Of a stretch of DNA of 64,000 bases, positions 23,400 through 30,422 are shown piece after piece (position 1 is the stretch's first letter; every line of letters starts with the position of its first letter). This DNA is from Rhodopirellula sp. SM50 (lineage in GTDB: Bacteria; Planctomycetota; Planctomycetia; Pirellulales; Pirellulaceae), in NCBI RefSeq assembly GCF_002289565.1, contig NZ_NTFY01000002.1, positions 1 to 64,000 of the forward strand, given 5' to 3'. The notes beneath the pieces were generated by a model, which did not search any database, had not been told where the DNA came from, and worked only from the letters and a program-made list of their open reading frames with translations. Both the position numbers and the translations under genes were made by a program.

Positions 23400-23802
23400 G
23401 AAACCGCTGGATCAGTTCACGGAGCGTCATTTCGTTGGCGTAATACTCTCGCTCCACCTCGTTCTGTCCGTGCCAACGCAAGAACTCCAACAGCTCGGAT
23501 TGCTTCAATTCCTGGATCAATGTCGGATTGATCGGATACTGATAGCCGTGCTCCTGAATCTTTTCGCACACCTGAATCAACTCAGACGGATCCAGCAGAT
23601 TCGCGGCACCGGCATCGACCAATGCGTGGACACCAAACGGCGTCGGCGCGGGATTCTGAGTCAAAAATCGATCGACGACCTGCCAGACCGTGGCGACCTG
23701 CAGCGTCTGCCGCAGATCATCCGCCGGCGGAACACGCGTGCCCTGCGATGGTGCGGCGGAGGGCGTGGAACGGGTGACGATCTTTTTTAGCCATGCGAAC
23801 AT
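23386..23802 (-). CDS. Hypothetical protein
   Basis: A 138-residue protein of unknown family. It starts with a short basic-hydrophobic segment (FAWLKKIV), then a serine/proline linker. A helical body follows with TVWQVVDRFLTQNP and ELIQVCEKIQEHGYQYP, ending in ELKQSELLEFLRWHGQ and TLRELIQRF. No membrane segment or catalytic motif is evident. It converges with the methyltransferase on the plus strand, and its stop lies in a 13-bp tandem repeat. The coding call rests on consistent codon use and a protein-like, well-mixed composition. Confidence 0.65.
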   Translation of the reverse strand: MFAWLKKIVTRSTPSAAPSQGTRVPPADDLRQTLQVATVWQVVDRFLTQNPAPTPFGVHALVDAGAANLLDPSELIQVCEKIQEHGYQYPINPTLIQELKQSELLEFLRWHGQNEVEREYYANEMTLRELIQRFRADR

Positions 23803-23928
23803 GAAACAAGCATAGCAACACGGTCAGCATGCCGGCCAGACGGAGCGAGACCGATGCGTGCGGGGAGACAGGAGTCGCGCCGAAGGCCGCTCGCCACCGC
23901 GATGGAGGCGGGGCGAGGCCAAAAAACA

Positions 23929-23963
23929 AACGCGACCCGGTCTGTGCAGACTCGGGTCGCGTT
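23929..23963 (-). terminator. Rho-independent terminator of the RRM gene
   Basis: On the minus strand a hairpin with 11-bp perfect arms (AACGCGACCCG with CGGGTCGCGTT), an inner 5-bp stem (GTCTG/CAGAC) and one bulged base is followed by a T-rich run, TTTGTTTTTT, at 23930-23921. It lies 66 bases after the stop of the glycine-rich RNA-binding protein gene. Confidence 0.8.
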
Positions 23964-24028
23964 CATGAATTCGTTGAGCGTGGGCCGGCAACGACCCACA
24001 TGACTTAAGCACGATGGCTCAAGGTGAC

Positions 24029-24391
24029 TTACCAGCCGCCGCGGCCTCCGCCACCGCCACCGCCGTAACCTCCGCCGCCGCCGCCACGGTTTCCACCGCC
24101 GCCGCCGCCGCCACGGTAACCACCGCCGCCGCCGCCACCGCCGCCACGCGGCGCTCGCTCTTGGGCTTCGTTGACCCGCAGCGGTCGACCTTCAAAGTCT
24201 TGTCCGTCGAGAGCATCGATTGCTTCCTTCGCAGCCTCGTCGGGCATCGTCACAAAGCCGAAGCCACGGCTTCGACCCGTTTCGCGATCGGTCAAAACAA
24301 TCGCATCATCGACCTGACCGTACTGGCCAAAAATCTCTTCCAGCTTTTCCGTCGTTACGGCCCAAGCCAGATTTCCCACATACATCTTCAT
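24029..24391 (-). CDS. Glycine-rich RRM RNA-binding protein
   Basis: A 120-residue protein. Residues 1 to about 78 are one RNA-recognition motif with RNP2 (MYVGNL, 3-8) and RNP1 (RGFGFVTM, about 42-49), both with the aromatic residues that stack on RNA. Residues about 85-120 are an RGG-type tail of glycine runs with scattered R and Y, ending GGRGGW. This matches the small RNA-binding proteins known in cyanobacteria and planctomycetes, which are often cold-induced. The tail is the kind of low-complexity RGG segment that promotes RNA binding and possibly condensation. A likely terminator lies downstream at 23929-23963. Confidence 0.93.
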
Positions 24392-24767
24392 CGCTACTAC
24401 AGCTCCAAATTCCGGAAGGCCTCATCACTCGGAGCTGTCCGCGACGCACAATAGGCGTCCATTTCGTTCTGAGAGTCTCGGTCTTCGATCTAGCCGGACA
24501 ACGACAACCGTCGTCCGCACACGCGACAAGTGTAACACGATTTCCAGGTAGTCTGGGAGTGATTCTTTCGGGGATTACAAGTGGATACCCAAAAATATGG
24601 GTGATATTCTGTCCACATCCGAGACTGGGGCGGGCGCAAGGTGGGGGGCAAAGCAGCCGTTCTGCCCGCCATTGAGCGGTTTTTGTTCGTTTCCTCCGCT
24701 GGGCTTGGCGCCTCAATGGACATAGATTGCGGTCCGCAAGTCGAAGAAAAGCCAAGGAAAAAAGTTC
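24392..24767. other. Divergent intergenic region, RRM gene and metal ABC operon
   Basis: About 375 bases with promoters for the minus-strand RRM gene and the plus-strand metal transporter operon. Around 24555-24620 it is A/T-richer than its surroundings and contains a short palindrome (24589-24604). AAGGA about 10 bases before 24768 is the ribosome-binding site of the transporter's first gene. No credible gene is seen in it. Confidence 0.55.
24589..24604. promoter_or_regulatory. Possible operator of the metal ABC operon
   Basis: A palindrome ACCCA-AAAATA-TGGGT lies about 165 bases upstream of the substrate-binding protein gene in the A/T-rich part of the intergenic region. Arms are only 5 bp. 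It does not match a Fur, Zur, MntR or DtxR box I can name. It is listed because the operon encodes DtxR-like domains that would need a target site. Confidence 0.25.
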
Positions 24768-25781
24768 ATGAAATTCTGCCAAATTGCTCTTTTGATGGTC
24801 GCCGGATTGAGTATCGGATGCGGTTCCGGCAAGCCGACCGGGGCGCCAGGCGGTGCCGAAACCGGCGCCGCGGAGAAGTTGCAGGTGGTGGTGACGGTCG
24901 GGATGGTCGGCGATTTACTCCGCAACGTGGGCGGCGACCGGATCGAGGTGACACAGATCTGCGGCGCCGGGGTGGATCCCCATCTCTACATGCCGACGCG
25001 TGATGACGTCCAGGACATCATGGAGTCCGACGCCGTCTTTTATTGCGGTTTGATGCTGGAGGGAAAGATGGCCGACACCCTTGAAAAAGTGGGCCGTCGC
25101 AAACCGGTGTTTGCGGTGACCGACGCGATCGACCGCAGCCGCTTGATGTCCGGTGACGCAAGTCAAGCGGCTGGCGGAAGCGAGGCGCACGGTGACCCCC
25201 ATGTCTGGAATGACGTCTCGATGTGGAGCCAATGCGTGGACTTGATCCGCGAGAAACTGACCGAGTTGGCGCCCGAGCACGGAAATGAATTTGCGGAGAA
25301 CGCCGCGGCCTATCAAGCCGAGTTGGAGCGGTTGCACGCCTATGGGCTGCGGGTCATCGCCACCATCCCCGAAGCAAGTCGCTTGCTGATCACGTCCCAT
25401 GATGCGTTCAATTATTTCGGACGCGCCTATGGATTGGACGTGCGGGGCATTCAGGGAATCTCAACGGAGTCCGAAGCCGGCCTGCAACAGATCAACGCGC
25501 TGGTTGATTTGTTGATCCGTCGCAACGTCAAAGCCGTGTTCGTCGAAAGCAGCGTGTCGCCGAAGAATGTCGAGGCCTTGATCGAAGGTGCGGCGAGCCA
25601 AGGGCACACGGTGACCAAGGGCGGCACCTTGTTTAGTGACGCGATGGGGCGCGAAGGCACATACGAAGGAACCTACATCGGCATGTTGGATCACAACTTG
25701 ACGACCACCGCACGCGCGCTCGGCGGCCAAGCAGATCCCGGCGGATTTCAAGGCAAGCTGAGCGGCCAAACGGAGCATTAA
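24768..25781 (+). CDS. Metal ABC transporter substrate-binding lipoprotein (ZnuA/TroA family)
   Basis: A 337-residue protein. Residues 1-18 are a lipoprotein signal with lipobox SIGC, so it should be lipid-anchored outside the membrane. Cluster A-1 family features are the metal-ligand histidines in GVDPHLYMP and GDPHVWND, a conserved SHDAFNYFGRAYGLD, and the acidic ligand region late in the protein (GTLFSDAMGREGTY). There is no long His-rich loop of the type seen in zinc-specific ZnuA, so Mn2+ or Fe2+ is as likely as Zn2+. It is first in a four-gene operon with ATPase and two permeases. Confidence 0.92.
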   Translation: MKFCQIALLMVAGLSIGCGSGKPTGAPGGAETGAAEKLQVVVTVGMVGDLLRNVGGDRIEVTQICGAGVDPHLYMPTRDDVQDIMESDAVFYCGLMLEGKMADTLEKVGRRKPVFAVTDAIDRSRLMSGDASQAAGGSEAHGDPHVWNDVSMWSQCVDLIREKLTELAPEHGNEFAENAAAYQAELERLHAYGLRVIATIPEASRLLITSHDAFNYFGRAYGLDVRGIQGISTESEAGLQQINALVDLLIRRNVKAVFVESSVSPKNVEALIEGAASQGHTVTKGGTLFSDAMGREGTYEGTYIGMLDHNLTTTARALGGQADPGGFQGKLSGQTEH

Positions 25782-25813
25782 CGGCGTGTCGCCAGCGGCG
25801 CCCGGATCCAACC

Positions 25814-26647
25814 ATGCTGAACCCACCAGAACGAAATGATGACGCGAACCTTCCGACGGCGGCCCGGGACGATGGAACGGGCGCCGAGGTGCCGTTGTCG
25901 GTCTATGATTTGACCGTGGCGTACCATCGCAAGCCGGTGATCTGGGATGTCGGCTTCGATCTTCCCGCCGGTCAATTGATCGGAATCGTCGGCCCCAACG
26001 GGGCCGGTAAAAGCACCTTGCTCAAAGCCGTGATGGATCTGATCCCGCGGGCATCCGGTCGCGTTCGCGTGTTCGGCGATACCTATCGAGAAAACCGGCA
26101 CCGGGTCGGTTACGTGCCGCAGCGTGAAAGTGTCGATTGGCAGTTCCCGGTCAGCGCCCTGGATGTCGTCGCGATGGGGCTGTACGACAAAATCGGTTGG
26201 TGCCGACCGGTTCGTAAAAGACATCGCGAACAGGCCCGCGAAGCGCTCGGCCGGGTCGGGATCGGCGACTTGGCGGATCGTCAAATCAGCCAACTTTCCG
26301 GCGGCCAACAGCAACGCACGTTTTTGGCGCGCGCCCTGGTGCAAGACGCCGACTTGTACCTGATGGACGAACCCTTCGCCGCCGTCGACGCCGCCACCGA
26401 GCGGGCAATCGTCGAGATCCTGCGTGACTTGAAGGAGCGTGGCAAGACCGCGGCGGTCATCCACCACGACTTGCAAACCGTCCCCGAGTACTTCGACTAC
26501 GTGGTGCTGTTGAACATGCGCGTCGTCGCACAGGGCCCGGTCTCGCAAACCTTCACGCAAGACAATCTGCAAAAGACCTACGGAGGACGATTGACGCTCT
26601 TGGACGAAGTCACCGAGGCAATGCGGCGACGGGAAAGTTCGCTTTGA
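25814..26647 (+). CDS. Metal ABC transporter ATP-binding protein
   Basis: A 277-residue ATPase with Walker A GPNGAGKST, Q-loop region YVPQRESVDW, signature LSGGQQQR, Walker B DLYLMDEPFAA and switch histidine VIHHD. The VPQR(E/S)xVDW text is typical of manganese/zinc/iron (MntA, ZnuC, TroB) ATPases. It lies 32 bp after the binding-protein gene and before two permease genes. Length is normal for the family plus a short N-terminal extension (about 35 residues). Confidence 0.93.
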   Translation: MLNPPERNDDANLPTAARDDGTGAEVPLSVYDLTVAYHRKPVIWDVGFDLPAGQLIGIVGPNGAGKSTLLKAVMDLIPRASGRVRVFGDTYRENRHRVGYVPQRESVDWQFPVSALDVVAMGLYDKIGWCRPVRKRHREQAREALGRVGIGDLADRQISQLSGGQQQRTFLARALVQDADLYLMDEPFAAVDAATERAIVEILRDLKERGKTAAVIHHDLQTVPEYFDYVVLLNMRVVAQGPVSQTFTQDNLQKTYGGRLTLLDEVTEAMRRRESSL

Positions 26648-26692
26648 GCGATTAGCGGTTAGATTTGAGATTTGAGATTGGGTGTCCCAACG

Positions 26693-28318
26693 ATGTGGCA
26701 GGTGAAGACGAGCAGCAGAAACGCGTTGGCCGGGATCGCTTCGTGCGTTTCAGGCGTGCGGCTGTCGCGTGGCCTGTGGGTGCTGGCGATGCTGACGGTT
26801 TCGGCGACCGTCTGTCACGCGCGGGGCAGACCGTCGCCGGAGACGCCATCGCCATCCTACGCGTTTGAGTGGACCGATTCGCAATGGGGCCGCGTGTTGT
26901 TGATGAAGGATTACAACACGCGGATCGTGATCTTCGGCGTCGCGGTGCTCGGCGGGGCCTCGGGTTTGGTCGGCAGTTTTACGCTATTGCGCAAGCGTGC
27001 CTTGATGGGCGATGCGCTCAGCCACGCCAGTTTGCCGGGGATCGCGATCGCGTTCATCGCCGCCAATTGGTTCGGCGGAAACGAAAAATCCTTGCCTTGG
27101 TTGCTGGTCGGTGCGACCGCCAGCGGGTTGCTGGGGGTTGCGGTGATCCTGGTGATCCGCAACCAAACACGGCTGAAGGAGGACGCGGCGCTCGGCATCG
27201 TGCTCAGCGTCTTTTTTGGCGCCGGCGTGGCGCTGTTGGGTGTGATCCAGCAGATGGACACGGGACACGCGGCGGGTTTGGAAGGCTTTATCTATGGCAA
27301 AACCGCTTCGATGCGGGCGGCCGATGCGCGATTGATCGCCATCACTTCGCTGATCGTGATCGCCGGTTGCTTGGTTCTGTTCAAAGAACTCAAACTGCTG
27401 TGTTTTGACGAAGGGTTTGCGGGGGCGCAGGGGTTTCCCGTGATCGCGCTCGATGCCGGCTTGATGACGATGGTGGTGCTGGTGACGATCGTCGGTCTGC
27501 AGGCGGTGGGATTGGTACTGATGATCGCGTTGCTGGTGATTCCGGCGGCGGCGGCGCGGTTCTGGACCGAAACGATGTGGCGGATGATGCTCTGGGCGGC
27601 GGTGCTGGGGACCGGCGGCAGCATCGTCGGTGGATTGGTCAGCGCGTTGTTCCCGGGACTCCCCTCCGGTGCGATGATCGTCCTGGTGTGTTCGGTGTTT
27701 TTCTTCGTCAGCATGATGCTGGGAACGCGACGCGGCGTGATCATTCGCTTGATCCGCCGGATGCGGCTGAACCGTCGAATCGATCGCCAGCATTTGCTGC
27801 GGGCGATGTATGAACAACTCGAAAAATCGTCCGGCGGGCCCGACCACGCGGGGCTGGCCGAGCGCACCAACCGACGCATTTCGGTCAGTCTTGGCAAGTT
27901 GCTTTCGATGCGAAGCTGGTCGCGGCGACGCTTGAGCCGGGCGATCGAGCGGGCGGTCGAAGACGAGTTGCTGCGGATCCAAGACGGTGCCTGCAAATTG
28001 ACCCAAGCCGGATTCACCGAGGCGGCACGACTGACCCGTCAACACCGCTTGTGGGAAATGTATCTGATCGCCTACGCAGACGTCGCGACGGCCAACGTGG
28101 ACCGCGACGCCGACAAGATCGAACACGTGTTGGCGCCGGAGGTGATCGACCAACTGGAGGACTTGCTGGATGAACAAGGCATGACGATCCCGGTGCCACA
28201 AAGTCCTCACGGACCACTAAGTCCCGGCGAAACACTAAGTCCCGGCGAAACACCTGGCGTGCTGGGAACCGACGCCGACTCGACGCCGCAACGAGACGCC
28301 TCGGGAGGACACCCGTGA
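26693..28318 (+). CDS. Metal ABC permease fused to a DtxR/MntR-like regulator domain
   Basis: A 541-residue protein from the ATG at 26693; an in-frame TTG 21 bases earlier is possible. After a hydrophobic N-terminal segment, residues about 75-355 are an ABC-3 family permease with multiple membrane segments (KRALMGDALSHASLPG, GLQAVGLVLMIALLVIPAAAA). Residues about 368-445 read as a winged helix (SWSRRRLSRAIERA, then LTQAGFTEAARL). Residues 446-482 match the DtxR dimerisation and metal-binding motif: RQHRLWEMYL then ADKIEHVLAPE. An SPHG motif corresponds to the usual CPHG/DPHG. Compared with DtxR, the equivalents of H98 and C102 are Asp, while the E-H pair is kept. This resembles chlamydial YtgC, whose C-terminal YtgR is released as a repressor. 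Confidence 0.85.
   Translation: MWQVKTSSRNALAGIASCVSGVRLSRGLWVLAMLTVSATVCHARGRPSPETPSPSYAFEWTDSQWGRVLLMKDYNTRIVIFGVAVLGGASGLVGSFTLLRKRALMGDALSHASLPGIAIAFIAANWFGGNEKSLPWLLVGATASGLLGVAVILVIRNQTRLKEDAALGIVLSVFFGAGVALLGVIQQMDTGHAAGLEGFIYGKTASMRAADARLIAITSLIVIAGCLVLFKELKLLCFDEGFAGAQGFPVIALDAGLMTMVVLVTIVGLQAVGLVLMIALLVIPAAAARFWTETMWRMMLWAAVLGTGGSIVGGLVSALFPGLPSGAMIVLVCSVFFFVSMMLGTRRGVIIRLIRRMRLNRRIDRQHLLRAMYEQLEKSSGGPDHAGLAERTNRRISVSLGKLLSMRSWSRRRLSRAIERAVEDELLRIQDGACKLTQAGFTEAARLTRQHRLWEMYLIAYADVATANVDRDADKIEHVLAPEVIDQLEDLLDEQGMTIPVPQSPHGPLSPGETLSPGETPGVLGTDADSTPQRDASGGHP
28216..28251 (+). repeat. In-frame 18-bp tandem duplication in permease tail
   Basis: The 18-base unit ACTAAGTCCCGGCGAAAC is present twice in a row, giving LSPGET twice in the tail of the first permease just before its stop. 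It is an exact duplication in a disordered, proline-rich end. Confidence 0.9.
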
Positions 28319-29673
28319 TGACCGGCGAACCGTTTGTTGCATGGATCGGACAGATGCTTCCTCTGGGGTTTTCGTGGAGCTGGGGTCTGGACGGCTGGAT
28401 CGTGGTGATCGGCAGCCTGGCGGCCGTCGCGTCATCGCTGCTGGGAAATTTTTTGGTGCTCCGCAAGATGAGCATGTTGGGCGACGCGATCACGCACGCC
28501 GTGCTGCCGGGGATCGCGGTGGCTTTCTTATTGACCCAGACCCGCAGCAGTCCGGCGATGTTTGTCGGTGCCGTGATCGTCGGCCTGTTGACGGCTGTGT
28601 TTACCGAATGGATTCGCGGCGCCGGGGGTGTCGACGAAGGCGCTTCGATGGGCGTCGTGTTCACGTCACTGTTTGCACTCGGGTTGGTGATTTTGGTCCA
28701 GACCGCCGACGCGGTGGATTTGGATCCGAATTGCGTGCTGTACGGATCGATCGAGTTGACGCCGCTCGATACCGTCTCGGTCGGCGGTCGCGACGTGCCC
28801 CGAGCGGCGGTCGTCCTGGCGGTGGTGACCGTGGTCAACGCGTTGTTCGTCTTGCTCTTTTTCAAGGAACTGCGTTTGACCTCGTTCGATCCGGCGCTGG
28901 CGACGACGATGGGTTTTTCGTCCAAGTGGATGCACTACGGGTTGATGATCCTGGTCTCGGTGACGGCGGTCGCGTGCTTCGAAAGTGTGGGCAGCATTTT
29001 GGTGGTCGCGATGTTCATCGTGCCCGCCGCGGCGGCGTACATGTTGACCGATCGGTTGGGCGTGATGATTGCGATCAGCATCGCGTTGGCGATCGTGTCG
29101 GCGGTACTCGGCCATGTTTTGGCGCTCAGCGTTCCGGCCTGGATCGGATACCGCAGCACGACGACGTCGGGCATGATCGCGGTTGCCGCCGGAGGCCTCT
29201 TCTTTGCGGCCGCGACGCTCGGCCCCAGGCACGGCGTGTTGGTGAAATTGGTCCGACGCCAATTGTTGTCGCTTCGCATCCTCTGCGATGACATCGTCGC
29301 GTCGCTGTTTCGGGGCGAAGAACTGGAACAACAGCCGCCCACGGCGACTTGGTTGGCCGGGGAGTTGTTCGCGTCCAACTGGTCCATGAAGACCGCCCTG
29401 GCGATGCTGCGCCGGCGCGGTGAAGTCGCCGATCAGGACGATCGATTGCAATTGACCCACGTCGGACGCGAACGGGGACAACGGTTGGTCCGGTCACACC
29501 GATTGTGGGAACAATACCTGGTCGACCGGGCCGGCAGCGGCGCCGAGAGGATTCATGACCAAGCGGAACGATTCGAGCACTTCACCGACCGTAATCTACG
29601 CGACGAGTTGGCCAAAGAGACCGACACGCCGGTCGAAGACCCGCACGGCCGGCCAATTCCCGACGAGAGTTAA
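28318..29673 (+). CDS. Second metal ABC permease, also with DtxR/MntR-like domain
   Basis: A 451-residue protein. The ATG overlaps the previous stop as TGATG, with GGGAGGA upstream, so translation is coupled. Residues about 15-310 form an ABC-3 permease (RKMSMLGDAITHAVLPG, GSILVVAMFIVPAAAA). Residues about 343-392 form a winged-helix-like region (SNWSMKTALAMLRRRGEV, LTHVGRERG). Residues 393-445 match the metal-binding half of DtxR/MntR: RSHRLWEQYL, IHDQAERFEHF, DPHGRPIP. All expected positions are acidic or His, with Glu at the DtxR C102 position as in manganese-responsive MntR. The two permeases probably form a heterodimer, each with a cytosolic metal-sensing domain. Confidence 0.85.
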   Translation: MTGEPFVAWIGQMLPLGFSWSWGLDGWIVVIGSLAAVASSLLGNFLVLRKMSMLGDAITHAVLPGIAVAFLLTQTRSSPAMFVGAVIVGLLTAVFTEWIRGAGGVDEGASMGVVFTSLFALGLVILVQTADAVDLDPNCVLYGSIELTPLDTVSVGGRDVPRAAVVLAVVTVVNALFVLLFFKELRLTSFDPALATTMGFSSKWMHYGLMILVSVTAVACFESVGSILVVAMFIVPAAAAYMLTDRLGVMIAISIALAIVSAVLGHVLALSVPAWIGYRSTTTSGMIAVAAGGLFFAAATLGPRHGVLVKLVRRQLLSLRILCDDIVASLFRGEELEQQPPTATWLAGELFASNWSMKTALAMLRRRGEVADQDDRLQLTHVGRERGQRLVRSHRLWEQYLVDRAGSGAERIHDQAERFEHFTDRNLRDELAKETDTPVEDPHGRPIPDES

Positions 29674-29761
29674 AAAGTCCCCGCTGATGGCCCAATTCGT
29701 GGCCTACGGTTTTCCTAGTGCTTCGTCAGCTTTGAATTTCCGAGCCCGCGTTTGTCGAGCG

Positions 29762-29833
29762 GAAAAGAGGTCAGGTACCAAAAACCAAATGGCCCACAGG
29801 GTGCTTCGCATTTTTGGTACCTGCCCCCTTTTC
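29762..29833. repeat. REP-like palindrome with flanking direct repeats
   Basis: Arms 29762-29784 and 29811-29833 are reverse complements apart from two mismatches, with a perfect 13-bp core (CAGGTACCAAAAA) around a 26-base loop. The arm begins GAAAAGAGGTCAGGTACC, which resembles the 'aaaggggtcagg' ends of elements mobilised by REP-associated tyrosine transposases (RAYTs) in other bacteria. A direct repeat CCCTTTTCCGCGGCG follows twice between about 29826 and 29862. The rest of the 270-base gap between the permease and 29946 shows no gene. Confidence 0.6.
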
Positions 29834-29945
29834 CGCGGCGACCCCTTTTCCGCGGCGCCCTCGGTTTAAAAGCGGACGGAGCACAAGGGCGTGCCTGCGA
29901 GAGTCTGCGGGCCACCGGTCAACCACGAATCAATCAGATAGGACG

Positions 29946-30422
29946 ATGGCTACAATTCCCGCTAAACGCAGCAGAACGCTTGTTGATTCGGAGGTCCAGG
30001 GCAGCCTGGTCCGCCGTGTGGCGTTGCACTGGGTTGTGTTCTTTGTTTGCAACACGATCGCACTGACGTTCTGGATCCGGTTGTTTGAGCAACCCGATGC
30101 CGATTGGGGACAGACCTTCGGCGACACCGTTCGTCGGTTCCTGCCGTTCTTCGTGATCACGGTCGCTTTGATCCCAGCGTTTGTCTGGGACACGTTGAAG
30201 CTGAGTCATCGCTTTGCCGGCCCGATCCTGCGATTGCGCAACACGCTCAAGGACATCAAGGCGGGTCGCGCGGTTGCCCCGTTGAAATTCCGCGACAACG
30301 ATTTTTGGCAAGAGATGGCGTGCCACTTCAACGACGTCATGCGGCTCCGCGATGCCGACGGTCAACCGAACCCGGTTGAGTCCGAAACCGACGAGACCGT
30401 GAGGGAACCGTCCAATGCGTAA
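29946..30422 (+). CDS. Two-TM protein with HAMP-like segment, coupled to Tad genes
   Basis: A 158-residue protein from the ATG before ATIPAKRS. Two membrane segments (VALHWVVFFVCNTIALTFW and FLPFFVITVALIPAFVW) are followed by a cytoplasmic segment with HAMP-like text (RFAGPILRLRNTLKDIKAG) and an amphipathic helix, ending in an acidic tail. HAMP modules usually relay signals to an output domain, but none is attached here. Its TAA overlaps the next gene's ATG (ATGCGTAA), so it is coupled to the TadE-like gene. A role in pilus assembly or signalling is inferred from context only. Confidence 0.72.
   Translation: MATIPAKRSRTLVDSEVQGSLVRRVALHWVVFFVCNTIALTFWIRLFEQPDADWGQTFGDTVRRFLPFFVITVALIPAFVWDTLKLSHRFAGPILRLRNTLKDIKAGRAVAPLKFRDNDFWQEMACHFNDVMRLRDADGQPNPVESETDETVREPSNA

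Follow-up and report, generated by a model that had tools for sequence, protein, structure and literature searches.

What a metal-dependent regulator domain does at the end of each permease of a metal importer is the question raised by an operon in the window analysed here, a stretch of 64,000 nucleotides from Rhodopirellula sp. SM50 (contig NZ_NTFY01000002.1, positions 1–64,000). The operon encodes an ATP-binding cassette (ABC) importer with the gene order substrate-binding protein (SBP), ATPase, and two permeases (P1 and P2), and each permease continues beyond its membrane part into a domain of the DtxR/MntR type (D1 and D2, respectively). The gene order is of the ytgABCD/troABCD type, as the first-pass annotation, made from the letters of this DNA alone, had stated for the chlamydial ytgABCD. 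We favour, with a probability of roughly 0.6, the reading that the two domains would serve as a metal sensor in place on the permeases and give feedback inhibition of transport, while transcription would be left to stand-alone MntR or DtxR proteins.

Both P1 and P2 were matched by the Pfam models ABC-3 (PF00950) and Fe_dep_repr_C (PF02742). AlphaFold models with a mean pLDDT (predicted local distance difference test score) of 91.6 for P2 and 81.1 for P1 superposed on DtxR with a root mean square deviation of 1.8 Å for the P2 domain and 3.6 Å for the P1 domain; a winged-helix (wHTH) fold was predicted in both tails, and the membrane parts of both models matched PsaBC. Thus, the proposal of the first-pass annotation that both permeases end in a DtxR/MntR-like domain, for which it had named structure prediction of both tails as a check, was borne out. 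The site residues are H367, H451, E455, D470, D474, E477, and H478 in D1 and D326, H395, E399, H414, E418, E421, and H422 in D2 (numbering from the GTG at 28315), and the earlier claim that the two ligand sets differ also held, with D470/D474 in P1 against H414/E418 in P2. Conservation was counted in relatives gathered by PF02742 in 60 related genomes, the loci of which were read (the Pfam-collected set); the P1 of L082, which has a 19-aa tail, and the P2 of L077, which runs into a contig end, were omitted from the ligand counts. Asp8 (MntR numbering) and His79, Glu83, His98, Glu105, and His106 (DtxR numbering) were invariant in all 35 P2 tails, and position 102 was Glu, His, or Asp in 34 of these. 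In the P1 tails, the usual set at positions 79/83/98/102/105/106 was His/Glu/Asp/Asp/Glu/His (30, 29, 32, 29, 29, and 29 of 34), and some of these tails were eroded. A Trp at core position 82 marks the fused domains: it was present in 35/35 P2, 33/34 P1, and 13/13 single-permease relatives and in 0/30 DtxR and 0/24 MntR proteins. The single-permease class is a rough one: it includes approximately 350-aa proteins that lack a permease part (G020, G022, G052, and one G042 match), and in G019, G027, and G037 the P1 and P2 genes lie apart from each other.

The DNA-binding head gave a different picture. PF01325 was recognised in all 53 stand-alone regulators, in none of 65 P1 tails, and in 1 of 73 P2 tails, where the lone match was a Bacteroidota protein under the cut-off. 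The tails were taken from alignment A2 (72 of 80 P2 plus the window) and alignment A3 (64 of 69 P1 plus the window), and the 80 named loci were the best 80 of 595 stretches retrieved by the pattern L[VIL]R[SA]HRLWE, for which reason the counts for H79, E83, and Trp82 given above come from the Pfam-collected set. PF02742 matched the P1, P2, and stand-alone sets alike; since the rows had to match D1 or D2 of the window, PF02742 counts in these alignments hold by construction, while the PF01325 counts do not. In the Pfam-collected set, the mean pairwise identity of the head (helices 2–3 and the wing) was 0.19–0.20 in P2 and P1, and that of the stand-alone proteins was 0.58 (DtxR) and 0.557 (MntR). 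Pairs were matched by their core identity to take out the effect of divergence. At a core identity of 0.45–0.55, head identity was 0.185 in P2 (213 pairs), 0.184 in P1 (104 pairs), and 0.508 in MntR (93 pairs); at 0.65–0.75, the values were 0.266 in P2, 0.271 in P1, and 0.244 in single-permease relatives compared with 0.581 in DtxR and 0.626 in MntR. The divergence-matched deficit of the head was approximately two- to three-fold, with the smallest value, 1.7-fold, in the closest bin. Two P2 proteins with a complete metal site even have shortened heads: that of L055 is about 10 residues shorter in the helix-2 region, and in L218 the distance from helix 1 to the core is 31 residues, not 46. Judged from these sequences, both fused domains retain the metal core but have an eroded DNA-binding head, and the two parts are under opposite selection in the planctomycete family.

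The erosion bears directly on the explanation suggested by the chlamydial system, namely that D1 and/or D2 are set free by proteolysis and, as metal-bound dimers, repress the operon. Operon order and fusion are as in chlamydial ytgABCD, where cleavage separates YtgR from YtgC and YtgR acts as a repressor of its own promoter (PMC5599777, PMC7755916), and the DtxR fold is retained in the window's domains; the head sequence, however, is degraded and in places shortened.

The distribution of intact metal sites between the two permeases was read in 111 two-permease operons, a number that contains at least seven duplicate pairs. Exactly one permease was canonical in 103 of them. P2 was canonical in 99, and in these P1 had the Asp98 form in 89, was broken or absent in 9, and was canonical in one (L055). 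The arrangement was reversed in five operons (L212–L216), where a canonical P1 is accompanied by an off-canonical or truncated P2 (the P2 metal part is truncated in L212, L213, L214, and L216); these belong to 12 further loci (L212–L223) that were hand-picked from the PF00950 list as fused and mostly paired. Five other operons combine an Asp98 P1 with a P2 that is off at position 102 only, and in L077 an Asp98 P1 stands beside a P2 cut by a contig end. The site was retained in 14 of 16 single-permease relatives, which would form homodimers. That the canonical site sits in P1 in some lineages and in P2 in others suggests a requirement for a single canonical sensor in each heterodimer. Metal may nonetheless bind to the Asp98 form as well. 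A conserved metal site beside an unconserved head and the unlike ligand sets of P1 and P2 would also suit a metal chaperone or acceptor, D1 and D2 taking the ion that leaves the pore and buffering it without gating; simple buffering would not need the conserved dimerisation and switch architecture of DtxR, and we consider this role rather unlikely.

As to transcription, the SM50 genome encodes an intact MntR (locus G000:C122; PF01325 at 43.7 bits). In 18 of 84 loci, the 2.5 kb upstream of the SBP gene contain an MntR-type gene whose head is intact, and in 17 of these it is divergent; L164, overlooked by the motif search, also has a linked MntR, and after the removal of duplicates the linked gene was counted in 18 of 77 distinct loci. 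Of the 12 additional loci from the phylum (L212–L223), 8 likewise have a linked stand-alone DtxR or MntR. Among 73 non-redundant regions upstream of the SBP gene, 35 contained TAGC....GCTA (in 20 shuffles, no palindrome with 4-base arms was counted more than 7 times) and 17 contained TTTTG......CAAAA (no more than 3 for 5-base arms). The operator op1 (TGTAGC....GCTACA, 7 loci) pairs with genomes having MntR only and op2 (TTTTGA....TCAAAA, 15 loci) with DtxR-bearing genomes, without crossover: op2 was present in all 15 loci of the genomes with a long stand-alone DtxR, three of which also have MntR, and the 18 loci of MntR-only genomes had op1 in 7 and neither operator in 11 (Fisher p = 6e-6 for the 33 loci with known genome content, uncorrected for relatedness). 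Because the operator score matrices derive from these very regions, the evidence is taken to lie in how the operators divide by genome content and not in the scores. Across these loci, the stand-alone regulator present predicts the type of the upstream operator, though not at the window's own promoter. This linkage of intact-head regulators to the operons, and the fact that the operators follow them, further argues against D1 or D2 being released as a repressor, which we regard as unlikely. The first-pass annotation had left three functions open for the domains, namely the sensing of different metals, gates built into the transporter, and release as repressors; a built-in metal sensor is what we favour, and the released repressors are the option that fared badly, given the eroded heads, the intact stand-alone regulators, and the operators that follow these.

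In the 9.8-Mb genome of SM50, op1 in the form TTAGCNNNNGCTAA occurs three times, twice just upstream of mntR, compared with 42 occurrences of the backwards control pattern. The two sites upstream of mntR (L003, C122) form a TTAGC....GCTAA pair approximately 95 bases apart, and at the third such site (C82:33402) no metal-related neighbour gene was recognised by eye. Beside stand-alone dtxR genes, op2 exceeded 20 bits in 0 of 30 loci (best score 14.2), so the link between op2 and DtxR is one of co-occurrence only. The stand-alone DtxR-type proteins of L087, L064, L081, and L093 are approximately 350 aa long; that of L087, the sole one scanned with Pfam, gave a weak helix-turn-helix match, PF02742, and two FeoA stretches.

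The in-place sensor that we favour would have arisen when one ancestral permease was fused to a DtxR/MntR protein and duplication then produced P1 and P2, each with its own copy of the domain. The fused domains would have lost their DNA-binding function and would act where they are. PF02742 corresponds to the domain through which DtxR dimerises, and two permeases make one transporter, so D1 and D2 can pair in place, presumably below the membrane part and via the DtxR dimerisation face. The 35 residues after the last membrane helix of P1 are strongly basic (11 K/R, 3 D/E) and the corresponding part of P2 is mildly so (6 K/R vs. 5 D/E); by the positive-inside rule the domains are probably cytoplasmic. 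This basic stretch, the fold, and the metal ligands would suit the ligand-binding, dimer-forming cytoplasmic domain of a trans-inhibited importer. Imported metal would bind the canonical site, here that of D2, and the metal-loaded D1–D2 pair would keep the transporter in a non-transporting state, which amounts to feedback (trans-) inhibition, with transcription left to stand-alone MntR or DtxR. The fuller proposition, that a repressor has become a metal gauge within the complex, a built-in DtxR heterodimer normally composed of one canonical and one degenerate partner and inhibiting the importer in planctomycetes at large, is offered tentatively.

Several observations weigh against the in-place sensor. 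The head of D1 retains an invariant Arg407 and a near-invariant Trp409 and must therefore have some function. This Arg/Trp motif and the head fold kept in both AlphaFold models would be consistent with a regulator that stays tethered to the membrane, the uncleaved D1–D2 pair binding DNA or the head binding a partner, such as the ATPase or the stand-alone MntR, and thereby signalling the metal state to transcription; yet the head of D2 is unconserved, and among the 15 non-redundant upstream regions without both operators no prominent palindrome is shared (at most 3/15), which makes tethered regulation improbable as well. The D1 residues are part of an RSW motif within aa 400–414 of P1 and its relatives (alignments A3 and A7, with L101 omitted from A7), which stands in an otherwise variable head and may contact a partner. 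Some fused members, the Bacteroidota relatives, may still bind DNA, as they match most of the MntR model, albeit far below its cut-off, L168 doing so from the head to the FeoA-like tail; this near-full match fits the loss of the head as a derived state. The window importer's promoter contains neither op1 nor op2, like that of the other MntR-only loci among the 11 of 18 mentioned above. Autoregulation by D1/D2 may take place here, and the lack of MntR and DtxR operators together with a conserved palindrome upstream of the operon (Table 1) is a point in favour of a released repressor. Finally, 9 of 111 operons combine a canonical P2 with a D1 that the letter test scores as broken or absent, and both sites are off in L217 (1/111); a pair of intact domains is thus not needed in every case. 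That several lineages have an eroded D1, and L217 two eroded domains, could indicate a functionless relic of a fused repressor; the invariance of ligands and core in 35/35 P2 and the reciprocal P1/P2 pattern, which both indicate continued selection, make a relic very unlikely.

The origin of the fusion, for which the first-pass annotation had offered an ancestral design of the PVC superphylum or a separate invention, was approached with two trees, built without chlamydial, spirochaete, or other TroCD/YtgCD sequences. In the domain tree, a sample of 49 fused and 16 stand-alone rows, the fused domains formed one clade apart from stand-alone DtxR/MntR (support 100/100). In the membrane tree, the 49 fused rows grouped in a single clade, separate from 12 unfused permeases of planctomycetes (100/98); P1 and P2 each made one clade within it. 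Because the fused permeases stand together apart from the unfused ones, one fusion followed by duplication would be the simplest reading for the sampled sequences. A clade of P1 and P2 only was neither supported nor rejected in the membrane tree (approximately unbiased test, p-AU 0.247). In the domain tree, two Bacteroidota members took a basal place among the fused domains, with an unsettled bootstrap, and the membrane tree put them beside P2 (93/82); more than one order of events would fit these differing placements. The Desulfobacterales loci L166 and L172 have a P1/P2 pair that is nested among planctomycete sequences in both trees, and L174 has a planctomycete-type fused P2 only; the nesting suggests transfer. 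Among 59 genomes sampled across the phylum, PF02742 occurred in an ABC-3 reading frame in 16, and both adjacent permeases were fused in 6, the SM50 genome being included in both counts.

The features of the operon are collected in Table 1. With a TroA-like SBP, an ABC ATPase, and two ABC-3 permeases, the importer is of the TroABCD/PsaBCA type for divalent metals, and its substrate is most likely Mn2+ or Fe2+. The closest solved structure to the SBP was TroA (1toa, E 1e-70), and the histidine of the HDAFNYF motif is retained; the top NCBIfam match of the ATPase was MntA-type (219 bits, under the model cut-off of 400). Mn specificity was considered and is undecidable from the SBP, which is TroA-like and has His at the third ligand place, a type that binds several metals. 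P1 and P2 were the only ABC-3 permeases found in the genome. Over the P2 domain, the nearest named relatives were 'Planctomycetes bacterium TBK1r' (99% identity) and Stieleria sedimenti (98%). The one-base overlap of the P1 stop and the P2 start suggests translational coupling.

Table 1. Features of the importer operon and its upstream region in the window
Feature	Position	Strand	Evidence
Palindrome ACCCAAAAATATGGGT upstream of operon	24587..24602		identical in 4/4 upstream regions aligned for the window's group, including the window
Substrate-binding lipoprotein (SBP), TroA-like	24768..25781	+	PF01297, 254.8 bits
ABC ATPase	25814..26647	+	PF00005
Permease 1 (P1) with C-terminal DtxR-like domain	26693..28318	+	PF00950, PF02742
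P1 membrane part, aa 77–343	26921..27721	+	
D1 of P1, predicted winged helix and metal/dimerisation domain, aa 346–510	27728..28222	+	
TGATG, P1 stop and P2 start overlapping by one base	28316..28320	+	sequence
Permease 2 (P2) with C-terminal DtxR-like domain	28318..29673	+	PF00950, PF02742
P2 membrane part	28396..29220	+	
D2 of P2, predicted winged helix and metal/dimerisation domain	29236..29670	+	

P1 begins with approximately 70 residues before the ABC-3 fold (26693–26900), among them a helix predicted with low pLDDT at aa 22–43. No Rfam match reached the gathering score for a riboswitch in 23800–30100, and riboswitch control was discarded as a candidate: four sub-threshold matches to miRNA models, all at 29757–29837, stem from a palindromic repeat. 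This dispersed repeat of approximately 100 bp with a GGTACC stem lies directly 3′ of the operon (29759–29836), resembles repetitive extragenic palindromes (REP) or miniature inverted-repeat transposable elements (MITE), and forms a strong hairpin (z −5.9); 40 scored copies with at least 87% identity were found in the genome (40 of 149 candidates were scored). Divergent to the operon, 24029–24391 on the minus strand probably encodes a glycine-rich protein resembling RNA-binding proteins of the RNA recognition motif (RRM) type.

Fusions of permeases with DtxR-type domains are already known: besides YtgCR, they are reported in 11 phyla in the review passage on Thompson 2012, and the same review suggests that the YtgCR mechanism may exist throughout bacteria. 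The literature search returned no work on planctomycete permease–DtxR fusions, which, with few subscription papers covered, is weak evidence of absence; as far as that literature goes, it is new that both permeases are fused, that metal site and head have met opposite fates, that the sensor subunit is swapped between lineages, and that a sensor in place can be argued for as a result. These findings suggest that a fused domain can work for the transporter instead of the genome, and they caution that not every permease–DtxR fusion is a repressor. If the favoured reading is true, a metal ABC importer is feedback-inhibited by a repurposed transcription factor, and substrate feedback on such an importer becomes directly testable.

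The chlamydial YtgABCD shares the operon order and an ABC-3 permease with a C-terminal DtxR-type domain, but YtgC alone is described there as fused, whereas both permeases are fused here (a distinction drawn by description, not by sequence), and YtgR is described as a DNA-binding repressor freed by cleavage, while the head is eroded in the domains described here. The TroABCDR (Treponema) and PsaBCA importers resemble the window's system in the TroA-nearest SBP, the PsaBC-like membrane parts, and the separate MntR-type regulator in the genome; the regulator-type domains on both permeases are the addition here. From the DtxR/MntR family, with which they share fold, metal ligands, and PF02742, the fused domains differ in the unrecognised PF01325 head, the tether to a permease, and the Trp at position 82. 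The logic we propose would be shared with MetNI and ModBC, where a cytoplasmic, dimer-forming ligand domain halts transport when substrate is plentiful and where the C-terminal domains of MetN and ModC inhibit transport (PMC10710835); in those importers the domain is on the ATPase, has another fold, and its inhibition is proven, whereas here it is on the permeases and would inhibit by analogy.

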